Positions 22,753 to 38,464 of a DNA stretch of 64,000 bases are shown piece after piece (within the stretch, counting starts at the first letter, position 1; every line of letters begins with the position of its first letter). The position numbers were made by a program, and so were the translations under genes. Source of the stretch: Flavobacteriales bacterium. GTDB taxonomy: Bacteria; Bacteroidota; Bacteroidia; Flavobacteriales_C; GCA-002722245. The stretch lies in NCBI GenBank assembly GCA_947444925.1, contig CANFBW010000012.1, forward strand, positions 1-64,000. The letters are read 5' to 3'. The notes under the pieces were generated by a model that was not told where the DNA came from, ran no database searches, and saw only the letters and a list, made by a program, of their open reading frames with translations.

Positions 22753-22988
22753 GTTCTTCAATTAATATAATTGCCTTCGGTAGAATTGCTGAAATCATAG
22801 GAACTTCATCTCGTAGTTTTCCACATGTAGCAACAACAAATGAGTTAAAGGAATTTTTAAATGTGAAATTTCCTGAATTGAAAAAAGTGAAATACGCTAT
22901 TGCGCTAAATAAGAAATTAATTACTACAGATGCTGCTATTGAAGTATCTGCAAACATTGCTTTATTGCCACCGTTTTCGGGAGGATAG
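22749..22988 (+). CDS. moaD: Molybdopterin synthase sulfur-carrier subunit
   Basis: 79 residues, ubiquitin-like. It ends in the required Gly-Gly (LLPPFSGG), the site that is adenylated and thiocarboxylated before sulfur is passed to the MoaE-bound precursor. The start overlaps the TSUP stop by 4 nt and moaE starts 5 nt after its stop. No MoeB/ThiF-type activating enzyme is encoded in the window, so that step must come from elsewhere. Confidence 0.92.
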   Translation: MSSSINIIAFGRIAEIIGTSSRSFPHVATTNELKEFLNVKFPELKKVKYAIALNKKLITTDAAIEVSANIALLPPFSGG

Positions 22989-22993
22989 CTATT

Positions 22994-23440
22994 ATGGAAA
23001 AAAAGAAAGTTAAAAATATTTTTGTTGAAGGACCTATCTCCGCCGCATTCATTGGGGAGTCGATAGCCAAGCACAGCAGCAATACGAATATTGGTGCGCA
23101 CAGTATTTTTTTAGGTCAAGTGCGTAGTGATGTACTGGGTGAAAATGTGGTTCAATCTATTGAATACACCACTTATGCAGATATGGCATTGGAGAAGATG
23201 GCGGAAATTCGCGAAGAGATTTTTGCCAAACATGCGCTTACTTGTATGCACATTCACCATAGTTTGGGAATTATTTCTGCAGGAGAAATTTGCCTGTTTG
23301 TATTTACTTCTTCAAAACGAAGAAGAGCTGCAGTGGACGCCTGCACGGAAGTAGTCGAAAGAATAAAAAATGAACTGCCTGTTTGGGGAAAAGAAATTTT
23401 TGCCGACAAAACCCACCAATGGAAAGAAAATACATTATGA
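22994..23440 (+). CDS. moaE: Molybdopterin synthase catalytic subunit
   Basis: 148 residues, normal MoaE size. Visible family features: GAHSIFLGQVRSD, VQSIEYTTYADMA, MHIHHSLGIISAGE and SSKRRRAA (the conserved Arg/Lys-rich active-site stretch). It forms the heterotetramer with MoaD that makes molybdopterin from cPMP. A GGAGG lies about a dozen bases before its ATG. Its last codon overlaps the moaCB start (ATGA at 23437-23440). Confidence 0.95.
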   Translation: MEKKKVKNIFVEGPISAAFIGESIAKHSSNTNIGAHSIFLGQVRSDVLGENVVQSIEYTTYADMALEKMAEIREEIFAKHALTCMHIHHSLGIISAGEICLFVFTSSKRRRAAVDACTEVVERIKNELPVWGKEIFADKTHQWKENTL

Positions 23441-24351
23441 ATGACATTACCTTTAAAATAAGTAGTTTAAGAAAAGCCACTGCTACTGCCATTGTTAGGG
23501 TTTCAAAACCCGAAACCATTGAAGCGGTGAAAAACAAGATGGTTCCGAAGGGTGATGTTTTTGAATTTTCACGAGCTGCCGGTTTGCTGGGGATTAAAAA
23601 AACCAGTGATTTAATTCCCGACTGTCATCCGCTTCCCATTGAGTTTGCAAAAATTCAACACAGTGTGGATGGTCTGAATATTGTCATTACAGTGGAAGTG
23701 CACACTATTTACAAAACGGGAGTAGAAGTGGAGGCGATGCACGGAGCATCAATAGTAGCGCTTACGATATATGATATGCTGAAGCCTATTGATAAAGGAG
23801 TTGAAATTCAAAACATTAAATTACTGCATAAAAAAGGAGGGAAATCGGATTTTGCCGATCGACCAATGAAGACTTTGAAAACAGCAGTGATTGTTTGTTC
23901 CGACAGTATTTCGGCGGGGAGCAAGCAGGATTTCGCAGGAAAAGCAGTGATTGAGCGCTTGCAAAAAAACAATATCCATGGTGTTGCCTACGAAATCATT
24001 CCTGATGAAGAAATTGAAATTCAAAGTAAAGTGAAACAGCTGTGCGCGGCTAATTTTGATTTAATTTTATTTTGTGGTGGAACAGGTCTGTCGCCGCGCG
24101 ATGTTACACCTGAAGCCATTAAGCCATTGATAGAACGCGATATTCCGGGGATTATGGAAGCAGCAAGATCTTATGGTCAGGATAGAACACCGTATGCGAT
24201 GCTCTCTCGAGGGGTAGCTGGTTTTATTGGTGCTTCGTTGATTATCACGTTGCCAGGTTCCACCAAAGGTGCTGCAGAAACGATGGATGCATTGTTTCCT
24301 GCAGTGTTGCATATTTTTAAAGTTGCTGAAGGTGCAAGACATGATCAATAA
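23437..24351 (+). CDS. moaCB: MoaC-MoaB/MogA fusion (cPMP synthase and molybdopterin adenylyltransferase)
   Basis: 304 residues from the ATG at 23437, which overlaps the moaE stop; a reading further upstream would only re-read moaE sequence. Residues about 1-140 are MoaC: KGDVFEFSRAAG, SDLIPDCHPL, GVEVEAMHGAS, LTIYDMLK and LLHKKGGKS, so the known catalytic Lys, His, Glu and Asp positions look kept. Residues about 148-304 are MoaB/MogA: VIVCSDSISAG, FCGGTGLSPRDVTPEA, and ITLPGSTKGAAE. The fusion joins the second and the adenylating steps of Moco synthesis. No separate moaB is present. Confidence 0.93.
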   Translation: MNDITFKISSLRKATATAIVRVSKPETIEAVKNKMVPKGDVFEFSRAAGLLGIKKTSDLIPDCHPLPIEFAKIQHSVDGLNIVITVEVHTIYKTGVEVEAMHGASIVALTIYDMLKPIDKGVEIQNIKLLHKKGGKSDFADRPMKTLKTAVIVCSDSISAGSKQDFAGKAVIERLQKNNIHGVAYEIIPDEEIEIQSKVKQLCAANFDLILFCGGTGLSPRDVTPEAIKPLIERDIPGIMEAARSYGQDRTPYAMLSRGVAGFIGASLIITLPGSTKGAAETMDALFPAVLHIFKVAEGARHDQ

Positions 24352-24931
24352 AACAAATATATTGGGTTTGGTGCTGTGTGGCGGGCAAAGCACGCGCATG
24401 GGAAAAGACAAAGGTATGCTCAAAAAAGGAGACCGCACTTGGGCTGAAATTGCTCGCGAAAAATTATTGGCCTTGAAGATACCTGCCGTTGTGTCGGTGA
24501 ACGATGATCAAGTGGATGAATACGAAAAGGTGTTTTCTATTTCTGATTTGGTGATTGACGAAGAGTTTGAAGTAGGTGGACCTTTGCTTGGTTTACTGAG
24601 TGCGCACCATCGCTTTCCCGACAAAGATATTTTTGTATTGGCATGTGATATCGTAGAAATGAAAACCGAAGTGATGGAGCATTTAGTAGATCGATATGCA
24701 GCGCCAGCGACAGTTTTTAAAAATGAATATTTTGCTGAACCACTTTGCGGAATATATTCGCACGAGGCCTTGGCTATTGTTTTGGAAGCACTCCAAAATT
24801 ACGAATTGAGAAGCCACAGCATGATGAATATTTTGAAGTTGATTTCGGCAAATACTATAGAAATCGATAAAAGTTGGTACCAACTTTTCAATAATTTCAA
24901 TACGCCCATAGAAGTAAAAGGAATAATATAG
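24341..24931 (+). CDS. mobA: Molybdenum cofactor guanylyltransferase
   Basis: 196 residues from ATG 24341, which lies 11 nt inside the moaCB end and just before the nucleotide-binding motif LVLCGGQSTRMGKDKGML. Later motifs: VGGPLLGLLSA and FVLACDIVEM (Asp of the metal site). It adds GMP to Moco to give MGD, the form used by Nas-type nitrate reductases, which fits the Mo enzyme encoded upstream. Eight bases separate its stop from the regulator gene. Confidence 0.9.
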   Translation: MINKTNILGLVLCGGQSTRMGKDKGMLKKGDRTWAEIAREKLLALKIPAVVSVNDDQVDEYEKVFSISDLVIDEEFEVGGPLLGLLSAHHRFPDKDIFVLACDIVEMKTEVMEHLVDRYAAPATVFKNEYFAEPLCGIYSHEALAIVLEALQNYELRSHSMMNILKLISANTIEIDKSWYQLFNNFNTPIEVKGII

Positions 24932-24938
24932 TAAAGGA

Positions 24939-25643
24939 ATGAAAAAAGAAGCCGCAGGAAATTGTTCGACTTGTAGAAATCAGTCGTGTTTAATCAAGAA
25001 AAATTACGGCGCCCACAACTATGATGTGGTGCAAGAAAATCACATTGTTATCGAATGCAAAAAAGGACAATCCTTTATCATTGAAGGTGCTCCTGTTCAC
25101 GGAATGTATTTTGTTTATTCTGGAAAGGCCAAAGTCACGAAATCTGGCTACCACGGCAAAGAACAAATTCTGCGCTTGGCTGCAGAGGGAGATATCATTG
25201 GTTTGCGCGGTTACAATCACCGCAAGGTATATCCAATTGCAGCAACTGCTTGGGAAGCAACTACCTTGTGCTACTTTCCAAATAAATTTTTCACGCAAGA
25301 GTTGCAAACGCACCATACTTTGGCTTATGAGTTGATGCTTTTTTACGCTGAGGAATTGGATAAAACAGAAGAACGCGTGAAGAAATTTGCGCAAATGACT
25401 GTTCGTGAAAAGGTAGTGGACGCATTGCTCAATATTTACGATCGTTTTGGACAAGATGAAGTAGGTTTGAAATTATTGCTTTCGCGCAGTGATCTTGCCA
25501 ACCTTGCCGGTACCAACAGCGAACAGGTGATTAGGGTATTGATGACTTTGAAAAATGAAAAAAATATCAACTGTGAAGGCAAAAATATTTTTCTCGATAA
25601 AATTGACGTCTTGCGTAAAGAAGTGAGAGAGTATAATTATTAA
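24939..25643 (+). CDS. Crp/Fnr-family regulator with FNR-like cysteines (copy 1)
   Basis: 234 residues; last gene of the nitrate/Moco operon. Cyclic-nucleotide-type beta-roll (GQSFIIEGAPVHGMYFVYSG, then GDIIG), long dimer helix, and C-terminal winged helix (SRSDLANLAGTNSEQVIRVL; the E-x3-R of the FNR recognition helix is kept). The N-terminus carries Cys9-x2-Cys12-x4-Cys17, and Cys111 (TTLCYFPNKFF) sits where E. coli FNR has Cys122 (MVCEIPFETL). That is a plausible [4Fe-4S] oxygen- or NO-sensing set. Cys40 is also shared with copy 2. It probably controls the nitrate operons; the ligand and targets are inferred. A 213-bp element is inserted immediately after its stop codon. Confidence 0.88.
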   Translation: MKKEAAGNCSTCRNQSCLIKKNYGAHNYDVVQENHIVIECKKGQSFIIEGAPVHGMYFVYSGKAKVTKSGYHGKEQILRLAAEGDIIGLRGYNHRKVYPIAATAWEATTLCYFPNKFFTQELQTHHTLAYELMLFYAEELDKTEERVKKFAQMTVREKVVDALLNIYDRFGQDEVGLKLLLSRSDLANLAGTNSEQVIRVLMTLKNEKNINCEGKNIFLDKIDVLRKEVREYNY

Positions 25644-25856
25644 ATGATTATCCGCAATTGTACCAGACTTGTGACAGAAGTGGCGCTAGATCCTTCAAAG
25701 ACCGAAACTTCGTTTCTCCTCTTAATCTCAAATCTCAGGAAGACAATCATTCTCGAAAAACCTATGTGGAAAATCGTTTGCATTTGTCCTCCTGAGGTAC
25801 TCCGAAGGATCTATCGCCCTAAACATAAATCTACTGGTACGATTCCGGATAATCAT
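25644..25856 (+). mobile_element. 213-bp nested-palindrome insertion element (MITE-like), copy 1
   Basis: Begins ATGATTATCCG and ends CGGATAATCAT, with 23-bp imperfect terminal inverted repeats (21/23 matching). Perfect 8-bp direct repeats ATTATTAA flank it (25636-25643 and 25857-25864), as expected of a target-site duplication; the left one contains the TAA stop of the upstream regulator gene. Inside are a second inverted repeat ending GATCCTTC / GAAGGATC and a third, CAGGAAGAC / GTCCTCCTG, around a core of about 60 nt. No transposase is encoded. Most of the 312-nt gap up to the GH16 gene is this element. Confidence 0.85.
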
Positions 25857-25905
25857 ATTATTAATATTCTTCCTGTATTGATGTAATTGTGCTGATTGGT
25901 GTAAA

Positions 25906-25938
25906 CAAAAAAACCTGTCGTTTTCGACAGGTTTTTTT
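25906..25938. terminator. Bidirectional terminator between converging operons
   Basis: Stem AACCTGTCG (25912-25920), TTTT loop, CGACAGGTT (25925-25933), with A-run and T-run flanks. It can end both the plus-strand nitrate/Moco operon and the minus-strand GH16 gene. Confidence 0.88.
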
Positions 25939-25955
25939 GTTTGTCACAACTTTTT

Positions 25956-28943
25956 TTATTCAATTTTCACGATGCGTATATTGCTTTTTTGATCGAGGTA
26001 TTGTGCTTCAACGAAATACATTCCCTGCGCTAAATTTTTTCCAAATACAATATTTTCATTGCTATTGAAATCATTGCCCTCAAAAACAAGAGCACCTTTG
26101 TAGTCGTAGATCTTGATCGCTACTTTTTCGTTTTGCGCATGCTCGAATCGCAAAATTGTTTCGTTGTAAAAAGGATTTGGAAAAGCGCTGGCCGGTGTGT
26201 TGCTATTTACTTCAATGATGCGGTCGTGATACAGCGCCGAACAATTATTGCCGATGCCTATCCAGTCTATGGTCACTGAGCCTGCAAAGGAGCTGTTGTA
26301 CACCGCGTTTTTTCCAGTGATTGGATAGGTGTGGTAGCCGGGATTTAAATTAAATAGTAGTTTGCTAACATTACTGCTGTCCACTGATCCAGATGGATTG
26401 CCATTTGTGTTTTTAAAATGCTTGCTGAAATCTATGGTGAATGTTTGGTAGCTGGTTGTGAGTTCTAAATCAAGTGCTGTGTAATTGTCAGCAGCCATGT
26501 TGGCGCCATCTTGCATGGTCATACGCAATAATACATTAGACGAAGCTTTGGCTGTTATTTTTGCAATCGCGGCATACGACGAACATGAAAAATCAATTGG
26601 CATGGCAGTGCTTCCGTCGTTTAGGCTATAGCTAAAGCTGTCCCATTCTTGATGGCCGTTAGCAGATACTTTCCATGAATGATTGCTTTCTGTATGCGTA
26701 AATGCACTTGGCGTGGGAGACATCCATTTAACGCTGTTGTCGCTGAATTCGTCGCTAAACAAACACGAGGTAGGTTGAGGTCCAACGGTAACGTAGTTGA
26801 TTTTTGTTTTGCTGCTGTTTGGACTGCTTCCGCCGATGGTAAGTGAAATGGTTTTACTGCCACTAGCACTGTATTGCACTTGCACAGGTCCAGCGCTTGT
26901 TGAGCTTGCTGGATTTGCACCTGCACCAAAATTCCATAGGTAGGTTTCGCCGCCCAATTTACCGGCGGTTAAATCGGTGAAGGTGATGGACGAGTTTAAA
27001 CAAGTATTGATTTTGTTGGCTGAGAAATCAACTGTCAATGGGCAATTTCCACTCAGTGAAATTGCCAATGTTTTGGTGCTGCCTGAACACAATGCGCCAT
27101 TGATTTCTGTAACAGTGATATCGCCACTATTAATAACAAAGTCGACTGTAATGGCTTTGCTTCCTTGCCCAGAAACAATGGTGGCACCCGCTGGAACCGT
27201 CCATGTAAAAGTAGATCCTGTTGAGCCTGTTACTGAATATGCTGCGCCTTTTAAGTTAAGGCATGTACTTGCTGGTCCACTGATGGCTGAAGTGGCAGGC
27301 GTGCTACCTTGTGCTTTAAGATTATCAAAATAATATTGATGGTTGGTATAACTGTTTGGATTAAATAGCATTTGCATTTTGTCAACATCGCTGCCGTTTA
27401 AAGTCGGGTCAGGTGTTGCCAACCAACTAAAAGTAAGTGTTGTCCAGGTATTGCTTGCTCCAGTTTTTGCAGTGTATTGACTGTGTATGCCGTTGGGATA
27501 GCCCTGTGGTGATTTTGCACTGTTGAGAAATTCAATGGTGATTGATGTTCCTGACGGCGCGCTACTGCGCACATCCATTGTGAATTTGCGCACGCCGGTT
27601 TTAAAATCGTCAGGATTTCCTACTTTAAATGAGGTGAAGGAAAGTACGTCGTATTGCACACCTGCATTGCGCGAATAGGATGCACAGGTAGCAGAGGAAT
27701 TGCTTCCGCCTGCACCTGGATTATTGCTATTGTTGCTGTATGAACCATCTGAATTGTTGCTGCCCAGATTACTGTTGTTTTCAAAATCACTGATGATTAG
27801 CGAGCAGGTATTGGTGATTGCTTTTACTGGGAATGAAACGTTTACTGGACTGCATGCATTGGCATTGCCATTGCCATCGGCATCAATGATCACCGATACA
27901 TTTGCTGACAATGGAGCGTTGTATGCTACGCTGATTGTTTTGCTTCCTTGTCCGCTTAAAATACTTGCGCCTATTGGTACCGACCAAGAATAAGTAGCGC
28001 TAGGTCCGGCATCGCTTGCGCTGTAGCTTTGTGTTTCGCCAACAAAAGAAATTTTTGGTCCTGTTACAGAAAGTGGGGAGCCGTTGCTGTACACGCGAAC
28101 ATAATCCACATACATTGAAACAGGGTAGTCGGCATTTACAGGCACAGCATTTCCGGTGTATGATCCACCGACAGCGAGGTTTAAAATCAAGAAGAAATCT
28201 TTTGCATCAAAAGGCCAGTCACTGGATTTCGCACCGGTGGAGCCTATGGTGGTAGGTGTGTGGGTTGCTGTGACAACACCATCTACAGAGAAAATAATTT
28301 TTGCGGGTGACCAATCTACGGCATATACATGATAGTCGAGTGACCAGTCGGTGCCTGTATTGTAACTGTTGTAGTTGTATTGGTGATTGCCACAAGGGGT
28401 ACAGTAATAATGCACCGTTTGCGTTGCGTTTTTTGGTGTTTTGTTTTGGGTTTCCATAACATCGATTTCACCGCCGTAAGGCCAAGTGCCACTTGTAGGT
28501 AGCATCCAGAAGGCTGGCCAAATGGCAGAGGTGGATGGTACTTTGATGCGTGCTTCATAGCGCCCATATTTCCAAGATTGTTTGCCAACGGTTTCGATTT
28601 TACCCGATGTGAAGTCGCTGCCTGAATTGTTGTAATTCACTTGTCGACGTGCAGTGAGTACTAAATTGCCGCCAGTGACATTTACATTGTTGGTGCTGTT
28701 GGTATAATATTGTCTTTCTCCGTTTCCAAATCCGCATCCCGATGAACCGTTGCAACCATTGCCTATTACATAGGACCAGTTGTTGGTGTTGAGTACTGAT
28801 CCGTCAAATTCATCTGACCATACAAGGTTGTTGCATTGTGAAAATGATTGATGAGAAAGGAGTGTTAGCAAAGTAAAAGAAAATGTTTTGCACCATTTTT
28901 TTGTACTTTCTAAGTTGATTTTGTTGAGTACTTGTTCTTTCAT
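25956..28943 (-). CDS. Secreted GH16 beta-glucanase (laminarinase-like) with PKD and binding modules and T9SS type A tail
   Basis: 995 residues. Long n-region then a hydrophobic signal segment ending SFSQ at about 36. Residues about 40-290 form a GH16 jelly roll: WSDEFDG, SGKIETVGKQSWKYG, WPAFWMLP and the catalytic EIDVME (Glu159, Asp161, Glu164). The bulged ExDxxE form is that of laminarinases, so beta-1,3- or mixed-linkage glucan is the likely substrate. Next are a PKD-like module, a carbohydrate-binding-like beta-sandwich (about 385-555), further PKD modules (TYLWNFGAGANP), another beta-sandwich, and a type A tail (ASAFPNPFYNETILRFEH ... GMYFVEA). It lies between the two nitrate operons and is not obviously related to them. 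Confidence 0.9.
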   Translation of the reverse strand: MKEQVLNKINLESTKKWCKTFSFTLLTLLSHQSFSQCNNLVWSDEFDGSVLNTNNWSYVIGNGCNGSSGCGFGNGERQYYTNSTNNVNVTGGNLVLTARRQVNYNNSGSDFTSGKIETVGKQSWKYGRYEARIKVPSTSAIWPAFWMLPTSGTWPYGGEIDVMETQNKTPKNATQTVHYYCTPCGNHQYNYNSYNTGTDWSLDYHVYAVDWSPAKIIFSVDGVVTATHTPTTIGSTGAKSSDWPFDAKDFFLILNLAVGGSYTGNAVPVNADYPVSMYVDYVRVYSNGSPLSVTGPKISFVGETQSYSASDAGPSATYSWSVPIGASILSGQGSKTISVAYNAPLSANVSVIIDADGNGNANACSPVNVSFPVKAITNTCSLIISDFENNSNLGSNNSDGSYSNNSNNPGAGGSNSSATCASYSRNAGVQYDVLSFTSFKVGNPDDFKTGVRKFTMDVRSSAPSGTSITIEFLNSAKSPQGYPNGIHSQYTAKTGASNTWTTLTFSWLATPDPTLNGSDVDKMQMLFNPNSYTNHQYYFDNLKAQGSTPATSAISGPASTCLNLKGAAYSVTGSTGSTFTWTVPAGATIVSGQGSKAITVDFVINSGDITVTEINGALCSGSTKTLAISLSGNCPLTVDFSANKINTCLNSSITFTDLTAGKLGGETYLWNFGAGANPASSTSAGPVQVQYSASGSKTISLTIGGSSPNSSKTKINYVTVGPQPTSCLFSDEFSDNSVKWMSPTPSAFTHTESNHSWKVSANGHQEWDSFSYSLNDGSTAMPIDFSCSSYAAIAKITAKASSNVLLRMTMQDGANMAADNYTALDLELTTSYQTFTIDFSKHFKNTNGNPSGSVDSSNVSKLLFNLNPGYHTYPITGKNAVYNSSFAGSVTIDWIGIGNNCSALYHDRIIEVNSNTPASAFPNPFYNETILRFEHAQNEKVAIKIYDYKGALVFEGNDFNSNENIVFGKNLAQGMYFVEAQYLDQKSNIRIVKIE

Positions 28944-29384
28944 AGCAGGGGTATTGGTTTGGGGTTTTATTTTGGGTTTGTGAATTTAAATTGCGTTTTG
29001 ATCTCAATAGTGTGAACGTATAAAATTCTTGTTTTCAATGTGTTGGCGTAATTGGAAAAAATCGTACACGCGCTTGCGTAGCACTTTAATTATTTGCACA
29101 ATAGAATTTGTATCTGATATTTTCATATCAATTTGCTTTAGTGCCATCAAACATGGCGGTTAATAAAAGTATTTGTGAATTGTGTTTTTGCGGGAAATCA
29201 ATGTATGTGTAAAGCGAAGTTTTGCTGACTTTACATTTTGATGTTCCTGAGTCGAGGACTTAAGGTGGGAATTATTTTTGAATAGGCAAAATAAAAACGC
29301 ACTGAAAGCAGTGCGTTTTATTTTTTTGATGTATGCTTTTATTTGATAGATTTTTTTTTGCAAACAGCTGCTGTAGAAATGCAG
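28944..29384. other. Intergenic region (441 nt) upstream of the GH16 gene
   Basis: Holds the GH16 promoter on the minus strand and, at 29294-29319, the terminator of the next minus-strand gene. I found no credible small gene or promoter pair in the rest of this AT-rich sequence. Confidence 0.4.
29294..29319 (-). terminator. Intrinsic terminator of the beta-barrel protein gene
   Basis: Stem AAAACGCACTG (29294-29304), AAAG loop, CAGTGCGTTTT (29309-29319). On the minus strand a T-rich run follows. It lies 66 nt beyond the stop of the gene at 29385-29972. Confidence 0.85.
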
Positions 29385-29972
29385 TTATTTCGTTTCTTCT
29401 TTTTTAGTGGTTTCTGTACTGAATTTGTAAACGACGCTAAATGCTAAGCCACTTGTTGAGAAACCAGAGCTGATACCTGCTAAAGTTTTACCTGAAAGAG
29501 CTCCCACAGATGCACTGATGCTTGGTATTGCCTCAAGGTTAATGTACATTTTAGGTGAAAGGTCATATTGCAAACCCAGCACATAGCCGAGTCCGAGCAT
29601 AAAGGTTGCATTGCTGTTTAAAGAGTAGGCCATCAATGAAAAAGCAGGTTCGAAACCGTGGATGAATTGCAGATTGGGAGCAATATTTTTTCTTTTTTCT
29701 GTACCAATGGCAAATTGAGCGTTGAACTGACCCTGTGTAGAGCCTCCTAATGTTGATAATCCAATATTCGCAGCGCCCAAGCGGTATCTTCTGAATTTAT
29801 TTTCGGCTTTTTGTGTTTTGTACACGAAGTCAAATGAACTAAGGTCAGAGAAGCGCACACCTACTTCTCTGTTTTGAACTTGTGCATTGCTGTTTGTTGC
29901 CATAAATAAAGAAAGTGCTAAGCTCCATTTTGTCATTGCACGAAGTCTTGTAAAAAATGTTTTTGATTTCAT
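29385..29972 (-). CDS. Predicted outer-membrane beta-barrel protein, function unknown
   Basis: 195 residues. Signal peptide 1-30 (RLRAMTKWSLALSLFMATNSNAQ). The mature part alternates aromatic and small residues in short amphipathic strands (EVGVRFSDLSSFDFVYK; MLGLGYVLGLQYDL; GLAFSVVYKFS), as in small outer-membrane barrels of this phylum, and ends in charged residues (TETTKKEETK). I do not recognise a specific family. It is divergent from the nitrate porin gene, with about 300 nt between them. Confidence 0.7.
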   Translation of the reverse strand: MKSKTFFTRLRAMTKWSLALSLFMATNSNAQVQNREVGVRFSDLSSFDFVYKTQKAENKFRRYRLGAANIGLSTLGGSTQGQFNAQFAIGTEKRKNIAPNLQFIHGFEPAFSLMAYSLNSNATFMLGLGYVLGLQYDLSPKMYINLEAIPSISASVGALSGKTLAGISSGFSTSGLAFSVVYKFSTETTKKEETK

Positions 29973-30104
29973 TTGTTCGTTTCAATTTAAGTTTAGGTTT
30001 ATTGATGCTTTGTGCACCAAATTTTTTCAACTGCTGTTTGTAGCAAAGAGCTTGTTATTATGGTTTGTAGCTAATAAATAGACTAAATTATTTAAGGATA
30101 ATAT

Positions 30105-30118
30105 CTGCCATTTGGCAG
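30105..30118. promoter_or_regulatory. Palindrome upstream of the nitrate porin operon
   Basis: CTGCC-ATTT-GGCAG: perfect arms in the 5-4-5 layout of Crp/Fnr sites, though the half-site differs from the nirB palindrome. It lies about 66 bp upstream of the -33 element, further than usual for an activator. Low certainty. Confidence 0.3.
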
Positions 30119-30183
30119 TTAAATTCACTTCAAATGCAGTCTTTTATTTTGTGAATTAACATTCTGTATACTGCATCCTGTCA

Positions 30184-30214
30184 TTGAATTCGCGTGCCTC
30201 TCCTCATAACTTTG
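30184..30214 (+). promoter_or_regulatory. Predicted Bacteroidota promoter of the porin-nrt operon
   Basis: TTG (30184-30186), 20 nt, then TAACTTTG (30207-30214), a good match to the phylum consensus. It would give a leader of about 48 nt before the porin ATG at 30269. Confidence 0.6.
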
Positions 30215-30268
30215 TTTCATCAAATCGATCGAAAGTAAAGTACCTATTATAAACTAAAACCGAAGAAG

Positions 30269-31657
30269 ATGAAAAAAAGATTACTGATTTTAGCCACGGC
30301 TTGGTTGAGCATTGTTTCAACTGCGACAGTGCAAGCGCAATTGACAGCTGGTGCACAAATTCGAACAAGAGGTGAATACCGCAACGGACAAGGGACGTTG
30401 TTGAGTAAAAATGCAAACATTTATCCCGATTATTTTATTTCGCAACGAACACGAATGTTTGCTGGATACACAGGATATCGTTTTAAAACTTACGCTTCGA
30501 TTCAAGATGTGAGGGTTTGGGGACAAGATTCATCAACCATAAACAGAACCACATCGGGATTGCTGAATGGCATTTTAGTAAATGAGGCTTGGGGTGAGAT
30601 CATGTTAAATGACACTGCGCCGAAAAGTAAAATTGAAAATTTGTCACTAAAAATTGGTCGACAAGAAATTGCTTACGATGACCAAAAAATTCTAGGATCG
30701 TTGGATTGGTTGCAGCAAGCGCGTAGGCATGATGCAGCGGTGCTGAAATTCTCAAACAAAGGATGGACCGCTGATTTGGGGGCGGCCTACAATCAAAATG
30801 CAGAAAGCGGCAAGGATATTTCCTACAATGGAAGTCCCTCTTCATACGCTGCCGGCACAAATGCCATTGGCACCATGTACAAATCAATGCAGTATTTGTA
30901 TTTAGGTAAAAAGTTTTTCTTTGGTGATGCCTCTTTACTTTGTTTTAAAGATGACTTTAGTAAATATACCAAACCTAGTGCGGCGTCTCCAATAAAAAAT
31001 TACGGTAATGCCGTATGGAGCAGAATCACCACAGGTGCATATATCAACGCTACTATTAAAAGAAGATTGTTGGTGACAGCTTCGTATTATCACCAAATGG
31101 GACAAGACAAAGATGGTGTGACAATGGATGCAAACTTGGTATCGATCACCACTTCCATGCAACTTGGAAGAAAATTGTTTGTTGGACCAGGAGTGGATTA
31201 TTTATCTGGAAACGACGGCACAAAAGCACTTACGGCAAGTTCTACCAATCAACGTTTTGACCCCTTGTATGGCACGCCTCACAAATTTTGGGGAACGATG
31301 GATTATTTCTACGTAGCTAGCGGTTCAGGCAAACAAGGTTTGGTAGATATGTTTTTTAAAATCAAATACAATCTTAAAGACAATCTGACTTTGTTGCTCG
31401 ATGTGCATGGATTTGAAGTGGCCAATACTTTGTCGAATGGTAAAGGAGGAGCACAAAATCCTTACTTGGGAACCGAAGTTGATTTCACACTAAAATACAA
31501 TATGACAAAAATCATCAATATAGAAGCAGGTTACTCGTACATGGCGGCAACAAATTCAATGGCGTCAGCGCAAGTTAAAAATGTTGCAAACCCTAATTTG
31601 AGTGCGTCTTGGGCCTATGTTATGGTGTCAATCAAACCTAATTTTTTAGCGAAATAA
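30269..31657 (+). CDS. Outer-membrane porin of the alginate-export family, probable nitrate porin
   Basis: 462 residues. Signal peptide 1-23 (TATVQAQ). The body has the features of the alginate_exp beta-barrel family: QIRTRGEYRNGQG at the start, YFISQRTRMFAGY, LSLKIGRQEIAYDDQKILG, WLQQARRHDAAVLKF, and repeated amphipathic strands to the end. It is the first gene of a plus-strand group with nrtA, nrtB and nrtD, 27 nt before nrtA. That context suggests it lets nitrate or nitrite across the outer membrane; the alginate name is only the family label. Confidence 0.82.
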   Translation: MKKRLLILATAWLSIVSTATVQAQLTAGAQIRTRGEYRNGQGTLLSKNANIYPDYFISQRTRMFAGYTGYRFKTYASIQDVRVWGQDSSTINRTTSGLLNGILVNEAWGEIMLNDTAPKSKIENLSLKIGRQEIAYDDQKILGSLDWLQQARRHDAAVLKFSNKGWTADLGAAYNQNAESGKDISYNGSPSSYAAGTNAIGTMYKSMQYLYLGKKFFFGDASLLCFKDDFSKYTKPSAASPIKNYGNAVWSRITTGAYINATIKRRLLVTASYYHQMGQDKDGVTMDANLVSITTSMQLGRKLFVGPGVDYLSGNDGTKALTASSTNQRFDPLYGTPHKFWGTMDYFYVASGSGKQGLVDMFFKIKYNLKDNLTLLLDVHGFEVANTLSNGKGGAQNPYLGTEVDFTLKYNMTKIINIEAGYSYMAATNSMASAQVKNVANPNLSASWAYVMVSIKPNFLAK

Positions 31658-31684
31658 TAGATCAGCTCATCAACAATTAATCTT

Positions 31685-32914
31685 ATGAAAATGAAAAAAA
31701 TAGTAAATAAAATAAAAGCAAAAATCACCACCAAGGCGTGGGCGTTAATGCTGCTAACAACAAGTGCTTTATCTGTAGAAGCATCCGAACCTGTTAAGTT
31801 GGGATTTATTCCGCTCACCGACTGTTCGCCAATTGTGATGGCAAAAGAATTGGGCCTGTTTAAAAAATATGGTGTTGAAGTGATTGTTACGAAAGAAGCT
31901 TCGTGGGCCAATGTGCGTGATAAAATATTAACTGGTGAATTGGATGGCGCACACTGTTTGTTCTCTATGCCTTTCTCAGTGTACACAGGTGTTGGAGGTA
32001 AAGCCGGATCTGAAATGAAAATTGCAATGATGCTCAATGTAAACGGTCAGGCAATTACTTTGTCAAATGACTTTTGCGGCAAAGTAGGATTTCGTCAAAT
32101 GAACAAAGTAGCACCGGTGGTAGCTGCTAAATTGAAAGCTGAAAGAGAAGTGACTTTTGCGATGACTTTTCCTGGTGGAACGCATGATTTGTGGTTGCGC
32201 AACTGGATGGCGATTGCAGGTGTGAGCCAAAAAACATCAAAAATTATCACCATTCCACCACCGCAAATGGTAGCGAATATGAAAGTTGGAAACATGGATG
32301 GATATTGCGTTGGTGAACCATGGGGAGGTGTAGCGGTGAAGCAAGGAATTGGATTTACACAAATTGCTTCTCAAGACATTTGGAAAGATCATCCTGAAAA
32401 AGCACTCGTGGTAAACAAAGACTTTAGCGTGCAACGCAGAGAAGATTTGAAGAAAGTAATGATGGCTATTTTAGAGGCATGTATTTGGTTAGACAATCCT
32501 GCCAATCGTAAAAAAGCAGCGGCCATCATAGGTAAAGCGCCTTATGTTAACGCTCCTGCCGATGTTATTGAATCTCGTTTGATGGGTAATTATGATTTGG
32601 GATGCAGTCAAGGGATTCAGGTTTATGCAAAAGATTACATGTTGTTTCACAAAGGCGGCATGGTGAATTTTCCTCGTAAATCATATGGCATTTGGGCGAT
32701 GGCACAATACGTAAGATTCGGAATGCTAGATGAAATTCCGAATTACAAAGCGATAGCAGATAAATTGATTTTACAGGACTTGTACAAAGAGGTTGCTGCA
32801 GCAATGAAGGTGAAAGTACCAGACGACGATATGAAGCCTTTCGCACTCACTTTGGATAAAACGGTTTTTGATCCACTGAATCCAGCTGCGTATTTGAAAG
32901 TAGCTACTAAATAG
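31685..32914 (+). CDS. nrtA: Nitrate ABC transporter substrate-binding protein
   Basis: 409 residues with a signal sequence (AWALMLLTTSALSVEA). NrtA/CmpA-type binding protein: VKLGFIPLTDCSPIVMAKELGLFKKYG at its start, DGAHCLFSMPF, TFPGGTHDLWLRNW, and GYCVGEPWG, all family hallmarks. There is no lipobox Cys at the cleavage site, so it is probably free in the periplasm (or in the intermembrane space) rather than lipid-anchored as in cyanobacteria. Binds nitrate/nitrite and delivers it to NrtB. Confidence 0.92.
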   Translation: MKMKKIVNKIKAKITTKAWALMLLTTSALSVEASEPVKLGFIPLTDCSPIVMAKELGLFKKYGVEVIVTKEASWANVRDKILTGELDGAHCLFSMPFSVYTGVGGKAGSEMKIAMMLNVNGQAITLSNDFCGKVGFRQMNKVAPVVAAKLKAEREVTFAMTFPGGTHDLWLRNWMAIAGVSQKTSKIITIPPPQMVANMKVGNMDGYCVGEPWGGVAVKQGIGFTQIASQDIWKDHPEKALVVNKDFSVQRREDLKKVMMAILEACIWLDNPANRKKAAAIIGKAPYVNAPADVIESRLMGNYDLGCSQGIQVYAKDYMLFHKGGMVNFPRKSYGIWAMAQYVRFGMLDEIPNYKAIADKLILQDLYKEVAAAMKVKVPDDDMKPFALTLDKTVFDPLNPAAYLKVATK

Positions 32915-32942
32915 AAAAAAAATAATGCTTACATAAAAGGAG

Positions 32943-32973
32943 GGTGGTGCAAAAGGATGGAGGTGGCGCCACC
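32943..32973 (+). promoter_or_regulatory. GC-rich stem-loop between nrtA and nrtB
   Basis: Contains the perfect 12-bp palindrome GGTGGCGCCACC (32962-32973). GGTGGTGC (32943-32950) can also pair with GCGCCACC (32966-32973), with one G-U pair, so two folds compete. It stands out in an AT-rich operon. It may protect the 3' end of the nrtA message or attenuate read-through, giving more binding protein than membrane parts. A T-rich stretch follows at 32976. Confidence 0.5.
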
Positions 32974-33018
32974 ACTTTTTACAAAAGAAAAATAGTCAAC
33001 ACATTAAATTTAGATGAA

Positions 33019-33900
33019 ATGTCAGAAACTGAAACATTAACAATGACGGAAAGCGAAAACGTAGAAAGTGCAATTCCATTAAAAGAAGAAACACAAAAAG
33101 AGAATAAGATGAAATATTATTTATCTATAGTTATTGATAAAAGTAAATCGCTCTTCTTTGCCTGTATTGGTTTGTTGCTCTTTGGCGGGTTTTGGAGTTT
33201 TATGAGTAGCTATACTGAAAATGAATTGCCTGGACCAGTTGCCACATTAACAGTGATGCAAGAAATGTTGAGTGATCCGTTTTACGATTATGGACCTAAC
33301 GACAAAGGCATTGGGTTGTTGTTGGTGGCCTCTGTAGGTACCGTTCTTTCAGGGTTTTTAATCGGATCGGTAGTGGCGATCCCCTTGGGTATACTGATGG
33401 GTGCAAGCAAAACATTCAAACAGATTTTATATCCCTTGGTACAATTGCTAAAACCAGTTTCTCCTTTGGCATGGTTTCCAATTGGACTCGTAGTTTTTAA
33501 AGATACGGGCATGGCGACAATTTTTATCGTTTTTATTACTTCGCTATGGTCAACAGTAATCAATACTTCTTTTGGTATTGGTTCTATTCCGCAAGATCAC
33601 AAAAACGTAGCGAAGGCTTTTGGTTTTTCAAAATGGCGCTATCTCACTAAAATATTAATTCCGTTTAGTTTACCGCACATCATCACAGGTTTGCGCTTGA
33701 GTATTGGCGTAGCGTGGCTGGTGATTGTGGCAGGTGAAATGCTTTCAGGTGCATCTGGTATAGGTTTCTTTGTTTGGGACAGTTGGAATGCGTTGAGTTT
33801 AGAAAAGGTGATTTCTGCCATTCTGATTATCGGTATAGTGGGTTTGCTTTTTGACAAGCTCTTTACATTTATCGAAAACAAAGTTTCTTACAAAGCCTAA
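33019..33900 (+). CDS. nrtB: Nitrate ABC transporter permease
   Basis: 293 residues from the ATG at 33019, chosen because the stretch before it covers the intergenic stem-loop. A hydrophilic N-terminal extension of about 35 residues (Glu/Thr-rich) comes before the first membrane helix. Six or so membrane segments follow, with the EAA-loop-like sequence NVAKAFGFSKWRYLTKILIP that docks the ATPase. Family: NrtB/SsuC-type (binding-protein-dependent transport, inner membrane). Imports nitrate/nitrite with NrtA and NrtD. Confidence 0.9.
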   Translation: MSETETLTMTESENVESAIPLKEETQKENKMKYYLSIVIDKSKSLFFACIGLLLFGGFWSFMSSYTENELPGPVATLTVMQEMLSDPFYDYGPNDKGIGLLLVASVGTVLSGFLIGSVVAIPLGILMGASKTFKQILYPLVQLLKPVSPLAWFPIGLVVFKDTGMATIFIVFITSLWSTVINTSFGIGSIPQDHKNVAKAFGFSKWRYLTKILIPFSLPHIITGLRLSIGVAWLVIVAGEMLSGASGIGFFVWDSWNALSLEKVISAILIIGIVGLLFDKLFTFIENKVSYKA

Positions 33901-33921
33901 AAAAACATTTAAAAAATTATT

Positions 33922-34728
33922 ATGAGCTATTTAGAAATTAAGGATTTGGAAATTTCTTTTCCAACACCAGAAGGAAAATACGTTGCGGTGCGCGACATCA
34001 ATCTGTCGATTGAAAAGGGAGAAATTATTTCTATCATCGGACACTCTGGGTGCGGTAAATCAACCATTATGAATGCCATTGGAGGAATGACTATTCCAAC
34101 AGGTGGTTCTGTAGAATTGGCTGGTAAAAAAATTAAAGGTCCCGGTCCAGACAGAGGTATCGTATTTCAGAATTATTCTCTTTTACCGTGGTTGACGGTT
34201 TATCAAAATATCTTTCAAGCTGTTGATGCGGTAATGGATTGTTCTAAAAAAGAAAAGCAAGAAATTGTGACGAACAATTTGAGCATGGTGAGCTTGTTGC
34301 AGCACAAAGACAAGTTGCCAGGACAGTTGTCTGGTGGTATGAAGCAACGCGTTGCCATCGCAAGAGCTTTTGCGATTAATCCGGGAGTGCTTTTACTTGA
34401 TGAGCCCTTTGGTGCTTTGGATGCACTCACTAAAGGTACAATGCAATTGGAATTACTTAAGCTTTGGAATTTAAGCGGTCGTGATAAAACAATTGTGATG
34501 ATCACACACGATATTGAAGAAGCTATATTTTTATCGGATAGGATTGTGGTGTTGAACAACGGACCAGCGTCTACCATCAGAGAGATTGAGAATGTTCATT
34601 TACCGCGCCCGCGCAACAAAATTGAAATTGTGAAAATGCCTGAATACCTTGAAATAAGAGACCGATTGTTGCATTTGCTTACCGATAAGTTTTCGGTTGA
34701 AGACATGGGTGTGGTTTATAAAAAATAG
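33922..34728 (+). CDS. nrtD: Nitrate ABC transporter ATP-binding protein
   Basis: 268 residues. Walker A GHSGCGKS (40-47), Q-loop VFQNYSLLPW, signature LSGGMKQR, Walker B VLLLDEPFGALD and switch His (MITHD). Clear NrtD/SsuB/TauB-type ATPase. Only this single ATPase is present; the NrtC fusion subunit found in cyanobacteria is absent, so a homodimer is expected to drive NrtB. Confidence 0.93.
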   Translation: MSYLEIKDLEISFPTPEGKYVAVRDINLSIEKGEIISIIGHSGCGKSTIMNAIGGMTIPTGGSVELAGKKIKGPGPDRGIVFQNYSLLPWLTVYQNIFQAVDAVMDCSKKEKQEIVTNNLSMVSLLQHKDKLPGQLSGGMKQRVAIARAFAINPGVLLLDEPFGALDALTKGTMQLELLKLWNLSGRDKTIVMITHDIEEAIFLSDRIVVLNNGPASTIREIENVHLPRPRNKIEIVKMPEYLEIRDRLLHLLTDKFSVEDMGVVYKK

Positions 34729-34732
34729 AGAG

Positions 34733-34915
34733 ATGAAGCAATTTGTAATCATTGGTGCTGCTTGTATGACTTTGGCATCGGCAATTCAATTGAAAGCAGA
34801 ATTTTCTGCGCCCAGCGCTATTGAAACTGGAACAGAAATGAGAAAGGGAAAGCGATTGGCAAAGTCAAAGTTGCGATCTCTTCTTTTTTTAAGTACTTCA
34901 AAAGGCACTAAATAA
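34733..34915 (+). CDS. Small exported or membrane peptide in the nitrate transport operon
   Basis: 60 residues from ATG 34733, 4 nt after the nrtD stop. Hydrophobic N-terminus (MKQFVIIGAACMTLASAIQL, ending near KAEFSAP) that could be a signal peptide or single anchor, then a basic tail (RKGKRLAKSKLRSLLF). No family recognised. The reading is supported by tight spacing on both sides (6 nt to the next gene) and a plausible signal sequence, not by homology. It may be a local accessory of the transporter, or noise. Confidence 0.5.
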   Translation: MKQFVIIGAACMTLASAIQLKAEFSAPSAIETGTEMRKGKRLAKSKLRSLLFLSTSKGTK

Positions 34916-34921
34916 ATTACT

Positions 34922-35611
34922 ATGGGAGATTGTTTTTCATGTCAAAATAGCAATTGCTTTATGAAGAAGAATTATGATGCGCATTCCTATGGCGAAGTGG
35001 TTAAGAATAGATTTTTATTGGATTGTAAAAAAGGACAGTCTTTTATAATTGAAGGCAGTCCAGTGCAAGGGATTTACTTTGTTTATTCGGGTCGGGCAAA
35101 AGTTACCCGCACTGGATCTAATGGAAAGGAGCAGGTGATTCGATTGGCAACTGATGGAGATATTATTGGTCACCGTGGTTTTAATCGTGGAACCGTTTAT
35201 CCTATCGCGGCAACTGCGCTTGAAAACACTAAGCTTTGTTATTTTCATAACAAATATTTCACTGAAGAATTGCAAACGCATAGTACGTTAACTTATGACA
35301 TGATGTTGTTTTATGCCGATGAGCTGGATAAGAGTGAAGCGCGTTCAAAAAAATATGCGCAAATGAGTGTGCGTGAAAAGGTAATAGATACGCTCTTGGA
35401 TATTTACGATCGTTTTGGACAAGACAGTAAAGGCTTGACTTTTGTGTTGTCACGCACTGAATTGGCAAATGTTGCAGGTACAAAAAGCGAACAAACCATT
35501 CGTGTGCTCACTGCTCTTAAAAATGAAGGATTAATTCAATGTGAAAGCAAATATATTTTCATGCTTAATACAGTGGCATTGCGTGCTGAAATTGAAAAGT
35601 TTAATTTATGA
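34922..35611 (+). CDS. Crp/Fnr-family regulator with FNR-like cysteines (copy 2)
   Basis: 229 residues, clear paralog of the regulator at 24939-25643 along its whole length. Cys4-x2-Cys7-x4-Cys12, Cys35 and Cys106 (KLCYFHNKYF) are at exactly the same spacings as in copy 1. The winged helix (SRTELANVAGTKSEQTIRVL) is also similar. Last gene of the nrt operon, so each nitrate operon ends with its own regulator. The stop codon TGA is made by the first bases of an inserted 213-bp element; without the insert the gene would read one residue differently (Phe for Leu) and stop at TAA. Confidence 0.87.
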   Translation: MGDCFSCQNSNCFMKKNYDAHSYGEVVKNRFLLDCKKGQSFIIEGSPVQGIYFVYSGRAKVTRTGSNGKEQVIRLATDGDIIGHRGFNRGTVYPIAATALENTKLCYFHNKYFTEELQTHSTLTYDMMLFYADELDKSEARSKKYAQMSVREKVIDTLLDIYDRFGQDSKGLTFVLSRTELANVAGTKSEQTIRVLTALKNEGLIQCESKYIFMLNTVALRAEIEKFNL

Positions 35612-35820
35612 TTATCCGGAATCGTACCAGTAGATTCATGTATAGGGCGATAGATCCTTCAAAGACCGAAACTTCGTTTCTCCTCTTAATATCAAATCTC
35701 AGGAGGACAAATGCGAACAATTTTCTACATAGGTTTTTCGAGAATGATTGTCTTCCTGAGGTACTCCGAAGGATCTATCGCCACTTCTGTCACAAGACTG
35801 GTATAATTACGGATAATCAT
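35608..35820 (-). mobile_element. 213-bp nested-palindrome insertion element (MITE-like), copy 2
   Basis: Same length and ends as the copy at 25644-25856. Flanked by perfect 8-bp direct repeats TTTAATTT (35600-35607 and 35821-35828), different from those of copy 1, so the two insertions were independent. The outer arms and the core match copy 1 only when reverse-complemented, whereas the segment after GATCCTTC (AAAGACCGAAACTTCGTTTC and onward) is in the same orientation in both copies. No coding capacity. Confidence 0.85.
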
Positions 35821-35840
35821 TTTAATTTTTAAAATTACAG

Positions 35841-35968: not shown

Positions 35969-35997
35969 AAATGCGCACAGCCTCGCTGTGCGCATTT
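35969..35997 (-). terminator. Intrinsic terminator of the first metalloprotease gene
   Basis: Stem AAATGCGCACAGC (35969-35981), CTC loop, GCTGTGCGCATTT (35985-35997). Nearly the same stem ends the paralogous gene at 38839-38868. Confidence 0.88.
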
Positions 35998-36034: not shown

Positions 36035-38464
36035 TTATTTTTGAATTGTGATTTGTTTTACTACATCACTGCTTCCGCTTTTTATATGCAAGAAGTAGAG
36101 ACCATTGTCAATATCACTAACATTTAATTCAAGAATGTTAGATACATTGTTTTTTTGTTCATGTAAAACTACTCTGTTGAATATGTCTGTTATTTCAACA
36201 GTTACCATTCCTTCTAAAGGCAAACTAAATTGTAAATTCAATTGACCTTGAGTTGGATTTGGATATACGATAATGTTTTGCGATGCAACTGTTGCAATGC
36301 TAGAGGATGCTTCAGCATATTGAACGGTAATACTTCCGCTATTAGTAGTGGTAGTTGCAGCTACAGGTGCATTTGTTCCGCAGTTCCCTACGATGAACGA
36401 ATGAGGTGCATTGCTTGAGTTACGCTCAATACCAGTATTTCCAACACGATAAGTAAAGTAGAAAGTCACTGTTGATCCAGTTCCTATCGCAATTGATTTA
36501 GTGAAGTTGCTTCCTGATGGATCCATGTACATTCCAATAATTCCGCCATTGTCTATTTTATAGTAAATCAACGCCATTGTGCATCCAGCAATTGGAGCTC
36601 CCGGAATAAATTTGAAAGTACTCACTCCGCTTTGTGATGATACTTCATAAGTATAATCTCCGTTAGCTGCCGCACCCGTGCATCCTGTAGGATTATTGAT
36701 TATACCTTCGCAGTTACCCATGATAAATGAATGGGGTGAAGCGCTGGAGTTTCTTTCTATACCTGTGTTTCCAACTCGGTATGTGAAGTAAAAAGTAACG
36801 GTTGATCCTACAGGAGCAGATATAGTTTTAATGAAATTACTTCCTGATGCGTCCATGTACGTGCCGAAGATTGCACCGTTGTTGATTTTATAGTAAATCA
36901 ATGCCATGCTGCATCCGGCGATTGGCGCACTTGGAATAAATTTGATCACAGTTGATCCATTTAATTTGCCCACTTCATAAGTGTAATCTCCGTTTGCTGC
37001 ACTACCAGTACATACACCACCCGCAGGCGGAACATTACCTGATAATACGTAGTTGCCCATAGATCCGTAGTCAGAATATCCAGTTGTAGATACCGTTGGT
37101 CTTCCTGCGCCATCAACATAAACGTAGTAATCCCCTGCAGGTATACTCGGAAAATCTATTACTGCCGAAAGAACCGCATCTGGATTTACGGTTTGAATTG
37201 GAATACCGTTGACATCTGTTAATGTTAATGCGATATCTAAATCGGGTTGCGAAGATGCTGGACTTGCTTGCAGATGTAGCGGACCTCCTATGGTATGAAA
37301 GCGGAAAACATCTCTGTCAGCTGCAGTTGTTACTACGCCATTTACAAGAACGATACCATCGTTGTTTGGGTCAATATTTGCTGCAGAACCATCAAGATTA
37401 TTGCTGTAGTCATCAGTGCGGAAAGTGAATCCATTAGTGGTGCCAATGACGTTGATGTCATTTTCTAAGTTATTGGCTGAAGGGTATTCGCCTTTGCTGA
37501 ATTGAACCATATTTACATAGTAACCCACACCCATAATCGGTGCCCAGTTGCCATTGCCTTGGTAGTATGATTCAGGAGGACTGATTCTGCCGTCGTGGCC
37601 CAAACCTAAAGTGTGTCCTGCTTCATGAGAACCAGCCTCGCCAGCTCCTTTTAAGCCACCATTGAAAACCCAACAAGGTGTTTCATTGCCCCATGTGAAA
37701 CTGCCAATATATGCTACACCACCTGATCCCGGTGCTGCAGTATTTGTTGGTGTGAAAATCACGCGCATACGACGGTTGATTGGGGCAGCATTGTAAACAC
37801 TTTCATTGGTAGTGACATTCAGGTTGAAAGGGCGATAATCTTCGCTCATCATTTCCCAAATTTGTTGTACCAATAAATCGCTAAATCCAGATGGCGCTGC
37901 ATTTATTGTGACTCCGCCATTCCAGTAAATACTTGTCACCACTTGTCCGTCAAAGTCAAGCAATAATGTAGCGGGCGCTGATGGCCAACTTTGCAGGTTG
38001 GATACATCTATTGAAGCAAGGGTGTTGTTGCCTTTTACTACACTCGGTTTTTCATGGTGCTCATTTAATTCAATACACAACAATTTATTAATGTCAGTAG
38101 CATCGATGTGTGCATTGCCATTTGCATCAGTTGTTAGTGAATAAGCCTGTTTTTGGTCTTTCAAAATAAAGGCTCCGCTTAAGTTTTTAGCATTGCCTTG
38201 CAAATAGAAAGAGGAATTGGGTGTGTTGGCAATAGAGCCACTGATGGAGGCGGCACCGTTATTCAATTTACTGACATTGATGTTCAGTTCAAAGCTTTGA
38301 TTTGCCGAAATTTGAATTTGCTGTGAATTCGAGGTTTTTCCCGAACTCGTTAGTTTGCCTAAAATAGAGGCGCTTGATTCAGTAGAATACGACTGTGCGT
38401 AGCCAGCTGAAATTTGCAGTATTAAAGTGCATAGCACTAAAAAACTACGTTTGATTTGTTTCAT
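36035..38464 (-). CDS. Secreted metzincin metalloprotease with two ~105-residue repeats and T9SS type A tail (paralog 1)
   Basis: 809 residues. Signal peptide 1-23. An N-terminal region of about 150 residues precedes the protease. Zinc motif HEAGHTLGLGHD (His280, Glu281, His284, His290) with Met-turn IMGVGYY marks a metzincin of the reprolysin-like type. Then a beta-sandwich of the bacterial pre-peptidase type (about 350-475), two tandem modules of about 105 residues starting CTGxAANGDYTYE and ending HSFIxGNC, and a tail IVYPNPTQGQLNLQF ... GLYFLHI. The repeats resemble glucan-binding CBM56-type modules (FYFTYRVGNTGIERNSS), a tentative call. It should digest protein outside the cell, perhaps in glucan-rich matrix. 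Confidence 0.85.
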   Translation of the reverse strand: MKQIKRSFLVLCTLILQISAGYAQSYSTESSASILGKLTSSGKTSNSQQIQISANQSFELNINVSKLNNGAASISGSIANTPNSSFYLQGNAKNLSGAFILKDQKQAYSLTTDANGNAHIDATDINKLLCIELNEHHEKPSVVKGNNTLASIDVSNLQSWPSAPATLLLDFDGQVVTSIYWNGGVTINAAPSGFSDLLVQQIWEMMSEDYRPFNLNVTTNESVYNAAPINRRMRVIFTPTNTAAPGSGGVAYIGSFTWGNETPCWVFNGGLKGAGEAGSHEAGHTLGLGHDGRISPPESYYQGNGNWAPIMGVGYYVNMVQFSKGEYPSANNLENDINVIGTTNGFTFRTDDYSNNLDGSAANIDPNNDGIVLVNGVVTTAADRDVFRFHTIGGPLHLQASPASSQPDLDIALTLTDVNGIPIQTVNPDAVLSAVIDFPSIPAGDYYVYVDGAGRPTVSTTGYSDYGSMGNYVLSGNVPPAGGVCTGSAANGDYTYEVGKLNGSTVIKFIPSAPIAGCSMALIYYKINNGAIFGTYMDASGSNFIKTISAPVGSTVTFYFTYRVGNTGIERNSSASPHSFIMGNCEGIINNPTGCTGAAANGDYTYEVSSQSGVSTFKFIPGAPIAGCTMALIYYKIDNGGIIGMYMDPSGSNFTKSIAIGTGSTVTFYFTYRVGNTGIERNSSNAPHSFIVGNCGTNAPVAATTTTNSGSITVQYAEASSSIATVASQNIIVYPNPTQGQLNLQFSLPLEGMVTVEITDIFNRVVLHEQKNNVSNILELNVSDIDNGLYFLHIKSGSSDVVKQITIQK
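36380..37015 (-). repeat. Two tandem ~105-residue modules in metalloprotease paralog 1
   Basis: Two coding units sharing GDYTYEV, KFIPxAPIAGC, ALIYYKI, FxKxI and VTFYFTYRVGNTGIERNSS, each bounded by Cys near start and end. The same pair occurs in the neighbouring gene, giving four copies in 5 kb. Confidence 0.8.

Follow-up and report, generated by a model that had tools for sequence, protein, structure and literature searches.

Non-autonomous elements with IS1595-type ends have been described before. Members of the IS1595 family usually generate an 8-bp target-site duplication (TSD) and carry a single transposase gene with an N-terminal zinc finger, except in the IS1016 group (PMC8101967), and A/T-rich direct repeats of eight bases are typical of the family (PMC12561309, PMC8101967). 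An IS1595-family MITE from Haloquadratum walsbyi, related to ISHwa6, is tabulated as 165 bp long and present in seven copies, with inverted repeats of 25 bp and direct repeats of 8 bp (PMC3852290). The elements described here resemble it in having inverted repeats of ≈25 bp, 8-bp direct repeats and IS1595-family ends, but differ in host, size and copy number, and its table entry mentions neither a palindromic captured core nor reassorted modules (PMC3852290). ISApl4 and other IS1016/IS1595-family IS likewise have 8-bp, preferably A/T-rich direct repeats and are found mostly in non-coding DNA, but these are autonomous elements with a transposase, and their 14-bp terminal inverted repeats (TIRs) have a different sequence (PMC12561309). 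MITECca01 of Cardinium, which also belongs to the Bacteroidota, is a lineage-specific MITE of ≈240 bp whose parent IS has the same inverted repeats; in contrast to the present case, that parent is of the IS982 family and intact parents are found in the same genome (PMC9769881). MITEs of the IS1595 family that have 8-bp repeats are not new, and the insertions reported below are an ordinary MITE burst. What is unusual is the reshuffled, captured hairpin core.

Two inserts at the ends of FNR-type genes

The window, that is, the whole 64,000-nucleotide stretch of DNA that was analysed, contains two inserts of exactly 213 bp. Each is bounded by 23-bp imperfect TIRs, which match at 21/23 positions in copy 1 and 20/23 in copy 2, and is flanked by a perfect 8-bp duplication that differs between the copies (Table 1). 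Both are located at the stop codons of FNR/CRP-type regulator genes, in which the Pfam domains cNMP_binding and HTH_Crp_2 were found. The length, the terminal repeats, the duplications and the location at the stop codons of FNR-type genes had been reported in the first-pass annotation and were confirmed. When one mismatch was allowed, the end motif ATGATTATCCG was present in the window only at the four element ends, compared to a chance expectation of ≈0.9 matches; four matches were reached in 0 of 100 shuffles.

The TAA of the first regulator gene directly precedes the start of copy 1. At the second gene, the first bases of the element, ATGA, supply a TGA stop, and the C-terminus of the regulator (FNR2) is thereby changed from KFNF-stop to KFNL-stop. 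The two copies had been described as lying in opposite orientations, which was true of the loop and of both outer arms. A 37-bp cassette, in contrast, points in the same direction in both copies because the inner parts are inverted relative to the ends.

Table 1. Positions of the two elements, their parts and their host genes in the window.
Feature	Position	Strand	Remarks
FNR/CRP-type regulator 1, host of copy 1	24939..25643	+	TAA stop inside target duplication; ORF, Pfam
Target duplication ATTATTAA, left	25636..25643	.	
MITE copy 1, 213 bp	25644..25856	+	
Copy 1 left TIR, 23 bp	25644..25666	+	
Copy 1 cassette C (AAAGACCGAAACTTCGTTTCTCCTCTTAATCTCAAAT), left stem arm	25697..25733	+	
Copy 1 inner stem CTCAGGAAGACA, left arm	25734..25745	+	
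Copy 1 invertible loop	25746..25784	+	
Copy 1 intact right stem arm S (GATCCTTCGGAGTACCTCAGGAGGACA on - strand)	25785..25811	-	Same family as the arms bracketing GIY-YIG genes
Copy 1 right TIR	25834..25856	-	
Target duplication ATTATTAA, right	25857..25864	.	
Terminator-like hairpin AAAAAAACCTGTCGTTTTCGACAGGTTTTTTTG beyond copy 1	25906..25939	.	Found by eye; absent from terminator scan output
FNR/CRP-type regulator 2, host of copy 2	34922..35611	+	TGA stop from element (ATGA); ORF, Pfam
Target duplication TTTAATTT, left	35600..35607	.	
MITE copy 2, 213 bp	35608..35820	-	Compared to copy 1, outer arms and loop are inverted; cassette C on +
Copy 2 cassette C	35661..35697	+	
Copy 2 loop	35710..35748	-	
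Copy 2 intact right stem arm S	35749..35775	-	
Target duplication TTTAATTT, right	35821..35828	.	

The element family and its parent IS

The genome to which the window belongs is a 3.24 Mb draft assembly of 123 contigs. With copy 1 as the query, 102 matches were obtained in it, and the 23-bp TIR pattern had 54 matches with ≤3 mismatches, compared to none for a reversed control. When the two sets of matches were merged by eye, the family amounted to ≈45–50 copies and fragments. The TIR pattern had no match in viral contigs. In 21 of the 26 TIR-bounded copies, the TSDs matched at ≥7 of 8 bases when a shift of one base was allowed, whereas re-pairing of the left and right flanks as a control gave 1.3 such copies on average and never more than 6; ten of the 26 had an exact TSD without any shift. 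AT content is 84.6% in the 8-bp flanks on the left and 59% in the window. Copy 2 and a copy on contig C43 differ at only 2/213 positions and yet have different TSDs, which shows that movement was recent. Some other copies have decayed at the TSDs and ends. The elements are thus short, bounded by TIRs, without a transposase gene and inserted at many unrelated sites with TSDs. The expectation that a genome-wide search would reveal further copies with 8-bp duplications was borne out for most of the TIR-bounded copies and, together with the full-length IS described below, the size of the family upholds the earlier suggestion of a non-autonomous MITE.

We scanned the TIR pattern over GTDB contigs. 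Exact matches were found at both ends of a 1004-bp IS (L137) in the congener G004, whose record corresponds to a Lake Pavin Bacteroidetes MAG (transposase 100% identical). The IS contains a single intact ORF of 307 aa that encodes an IS1595-family transposase, identified by NCBIfam NF033547 (IS1595; 5.9e-60, 202.8 bits versus a cut-off of 75) and Pfam PF12762 (DDE_Tnp_IS1595; 2.1e-24), with a CKKC...CSKC motif close to the N-terminus. It is flanked by the 8-bp repeat ATTAGTTA, and one additional base is present at either side. In its transposase domain, 8-bp TSD, single gene and N-terminal zinc finger, the IS conforms to the IS1595 family, one of the three families that had been named as candidates when a search for a full-length IS sharing these termini was proposed. 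Four IS of 1040 bp in Algoriphagus, Rhodonellum and Belliella have the same type of TIR and a transposase that is ≈51% identical, and small elements of 149–167 bp with these ends are also found in Algoriphagus and Cyclobacteriaceae. The Algoriphagus copies have direct repeats of 8–10 bp; at the Algoriphagus/Belliella elements L125, L122 and L145, the repeats are exact over 10 bp, while those of the others are 8–9 bp.

The 123-contig draft of the own genome yielded no intact IS1595 transposase associated with this TIR, and its unpaired TIRs led only to relics. A transposase relic with several stops is located at C15:33195-33583, and contig C73 retains the final 75 bp of the IS, TIR included, at 91% identity. 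An intact transposase may be missing from the draft assembly; alternatively, the element may have become stranded. The MITE and the 1004-bp IS have no sequence in common outside the TIRs, and the MITE was therefore assembled around foreign DNA, rather than being a simple internal deletion. Having the same termini as an IS1595-type IS, the elements are MITEs that would be mobilised in trans by a transposase of that family.

The hairpin core and the palindromes of the genus

Inside the TIRs lies a nested palindrome with two differing outer arms, the stem S, formed by GATCCTTCGGAGTACCTCAGGAGGACA together with its complement, and a loop of ≈40 bp. The 213-bp copies have the 37-bp cassette, denoted C, in place of the GGAGTAC of one S arm; this cassette is missing in a copy of 183 bp. 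Among 24 cassette-bearing copies, all four combinations of cassette side and loop orientation, both judged against the outer arms, are represented (8, 8, 5 and 3 copies). Copy 1 and the copy on C73 are 97.7% identical in the outer arms and loop, but carry the cassette on opposite arms. The cassette changed sides at least eight times on a tree of the copies that is itself poorly resolved (3/19 branches starred).

An orthologous S hairpin in two congeners, G004 and G002, is inverted in place: a 106-bp segment is 97% identical only when one copy is read in reverse, whereas the flanks are 86% identical, so that the hairpin is better conserved than its surroundings. Most of the genomes are draft MAGs and palindromes are hard for assemblers, but this flip was observed by comparing two separate assemblies. 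The two hairpins, at L090:1508-1613 in G004 and L094:904-1009 in G002, are an intergenic pair. Recombination between the short repeats of the stem, or template switching between them, probably caused the inversions.

Correia elements, as cited in a review (PMC10969869), offer a precedent for short mobile DNA that inverts across its own inverted repeats, and Wolbachia IS are inverted by recombination between their TIRs (PMC3004938). In those cases, it is the whole element or IS between the TIRs that inverts, whereas here nested inner segments are inverted independently of the ends (PMC10969869, PMC3004938). Short hairpin loops in chloroplast spacers also flip between related taxa, but this is plastid DNA and not a transposable element (e.g., PMC2903610). 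In the present family, ≈50 copies, some of them near-identical, contain nested hairpin segments that inverted independently of the ends. Together with the orthologous hairpin flipped in place, this makes it possible to measure how often, and by what mechanism, hairpins drive inversion in a bacterial chromosome.

Cassette C is a genus-wide repeat in its own right. Besides its two places in the window, it was found at 25 further places in the same genome (G000) and at 27 in G001–G004, and was absent from five sister-genus genomes. Constant flanks (AGACC ... CTCTTAATATCAAA) surround a variable hairpin tip, whose variants show compensating changes, e.g., GAAACTTCGTTTC, GGAAGTTCCTTCC and AAAGCCATTACCTATGGCTTT.

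Congeners as well as the own genome also contain palindromes of the S type without these TIRs; in the own genome, arms of this type, 34 bp long and 100% identical, bracket a small GIY-YIG gene on contig C63. In the genus, 9/12 small GIY-YIG genes lie inside tight inverted repeats, and in a Bacteroidota-wide sample inverted repeats bracket 5/30, compared to 3/400 and 0/390 random windows in the controls. Four GIY-YIG units in four species are similar to each other, while their surroundings are unrelated. Other MITEs with IS1595 ends in the genus contain other palindromes, GGCCTCATCC... in G001 and those of the GTCATTGCGA... and AACCACGGAG... types in G004; thus, on several occasions IS1595 ends were combined with different palindromes. 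The brackets in the genus (L109:1396-1836 on C63, L111, L112, L113, L114, L116, L117, L119 and L120) have arms of 28–60 bp that are 95–100% identical and belong to common palindromic families, and the inverted repeats around the bracketed genes from the Bacteroidota-wide sample (L183, L194, L196, L202 and L205) are mostly of the CATTGCGAGG...GAAGCAATC type.

A tentative and rather speculative interpretation is that the stem palindromes are themselves mobile but non-autonomous and derive from a unit in which long inverted arms enclose a small GIY-YIG nuclease gene, similar in logic to RAYT and REP, and that they have been captured repeatedly by IS1595 ends in this genus, giving two-layer composites with hairpins that flip in place. 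The finding connects IS1595 ends with widespread palindromic repeats located on both sides of small GIY-YIG genes; we found no description of this connection in the open-access literature searched.

Taken as a whole, the element is in all probability a MITE moved in trans by an IS1595-family transposase, with a captured and repeatedly inverted hairpin core and with survival at gene ends. The transposase would recognise the 23-bp ends, move the element and duplicate an AT-rich 8-bp target. Between these ends is a hairpin captured from a family of palindromic repeats that resides in the genus, with the 37-bp hairpin cassette occupying one arm of the stem. The cassette arm and the loop have repeatedly changed orientation across the stem repeats that flank them, probably through recombination or through template switching inside the hairpin. 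Copies persist mostly between genes, including beside stop codons, presumably because insertions at such places cause little damage.

Placement at gene ends and alternative explanations

Since the two host genes are paralogs ≈10 kb apart, we considered the possibility that one segmental duplication had copied an FNR gene together with its 3' insert. However, the TSDs are different and in a different register, nothing is shared beyond the element, and copy 2 is closer to the C43 copy than to copy 1. Furthermore, the orthologs of both genes lack the element in G004, where that of the first (FNR1) ends in TATCATTATTAG. The site of copy 2 is unoccupied in both G004 and G002 (TTTAATTTTTAA), and the FNR2 orthologs end in AAATTTAATTTTTAATATATGG and AAATTTAATTTTTAAAAAATGG, respectively, the exact sequence that preceded the insertion of copy 2. 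The unoccupied orthologous sites and the distinct TSDs exclude a segmental duplication for practical purposes, and comparison with related genomes, which the first-pass annotation had recommended as a check for an ancestral duplication, instead supports its claim of two independent insertions. The elements are also palindromic, intergenic and multi-copy, with variable hairpin tips, as in a REP/BIME-type repeat moved by a RAYT, a single-strand Y1 transposase, in place of a DDE enzyme. For the outer element, this origin is highly implausible and largely refuted by the clear TIRs, the 8-bp TSDs and the matching DDE-type IS; to our knowledge, IS200/IS605-type enzymes produce no TSD.

Eleven of the 26 copies lie ≤20 bp from a stop codon, compared to 6.3 expected if copies were placed at random within the same intergenic intervals (P = 0.004; for distances of 10 and 30 bp, P = 0.02 and 0.03, respectively), which is modest evidence of enrichment because the gene models are simple ORF calls. 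The other 15 are further away, and five copies lie between divergent genes. This distribution fits AT-rich targeting combined with tolerance at gene ends, where selection may be the cause of the positions. A preference for AT-rich 3' ends of genes, as suggested earlier, was consistent with the AT content of the flanks and with the copies near stops, but most copies are not at stops. The alternative suggestion of a feature common to the two FNR genes found no counterpart beyond their AT-rich ends. The AT-rich final codons of both paralogs (YNY-stop and FNF-stop) suffice to explain both insertions; the double hit on two paralogs is otherwise unexplained, and the coincidence was noticed after the fact.

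Both elements fold far more stably than shuffled sequences (z = -7.0 and -8.6), with copy 2 as RNA reaching -83.8 kcal/mol (z = -8.6). This stability, the enrichment near stops and the presence of another palindrome after the same FNR1 stop in G002 could mean that the element is kept as a functional terminator or a stabilising mRNA 3' structure, with its position at the stop codon under selection. Such a role, raised in the first-pass annotation, is nevertheless improbable: the elements have no T-tract, a terminator scan found none inside either of them, and terminator-like hairpins persist downstream of both, at 25906–25939 (by eye) and 35969–35997 (scan). In addition, most copies are not near stops, some lie between divergent genes, and copies decay at the TSDs and ends. 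An Rfam scan around copy 1 gave no match at the gathering score, and its weak matches centre on the downstream hairpin. The only ORF of the MITE is 80 aa long. A 71-aa frame that starts at the terminal ATG is open in all 11 aligned 213-bp copies, for which the neutral expectation is 0.04, and in three copies it overlaps the upstream stop (ATGA), as if it were selected and coupled to the preceding gene. However, differences between copies are spread equally over the codon positions (37, 47 and 36), so that there is no coding signature, and both longer and shorter copies are frameshifted, which makes a selected reading frame very unlikely.

In G002, the FNR1 ortholog ends in TATAATTATTAA and is followed directly by a different long palindrome (L161:1330-1500), at the same position as copy 1 in the window. 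The FNR-type genes themselves are located amid molybdenum-cofactor-like and nitrate-type ABC transporter-like genes (window positions 19865–35611), a setting that suggests a nitrate/molybdenum cluster, as judged from the ORF translations. Beyond copy 2, two adjacent paralogous genes for large secreted-protease-like proteins with similar C-terminal ends occupy positions 36035–38464 and 38893–41583 on the - strand.
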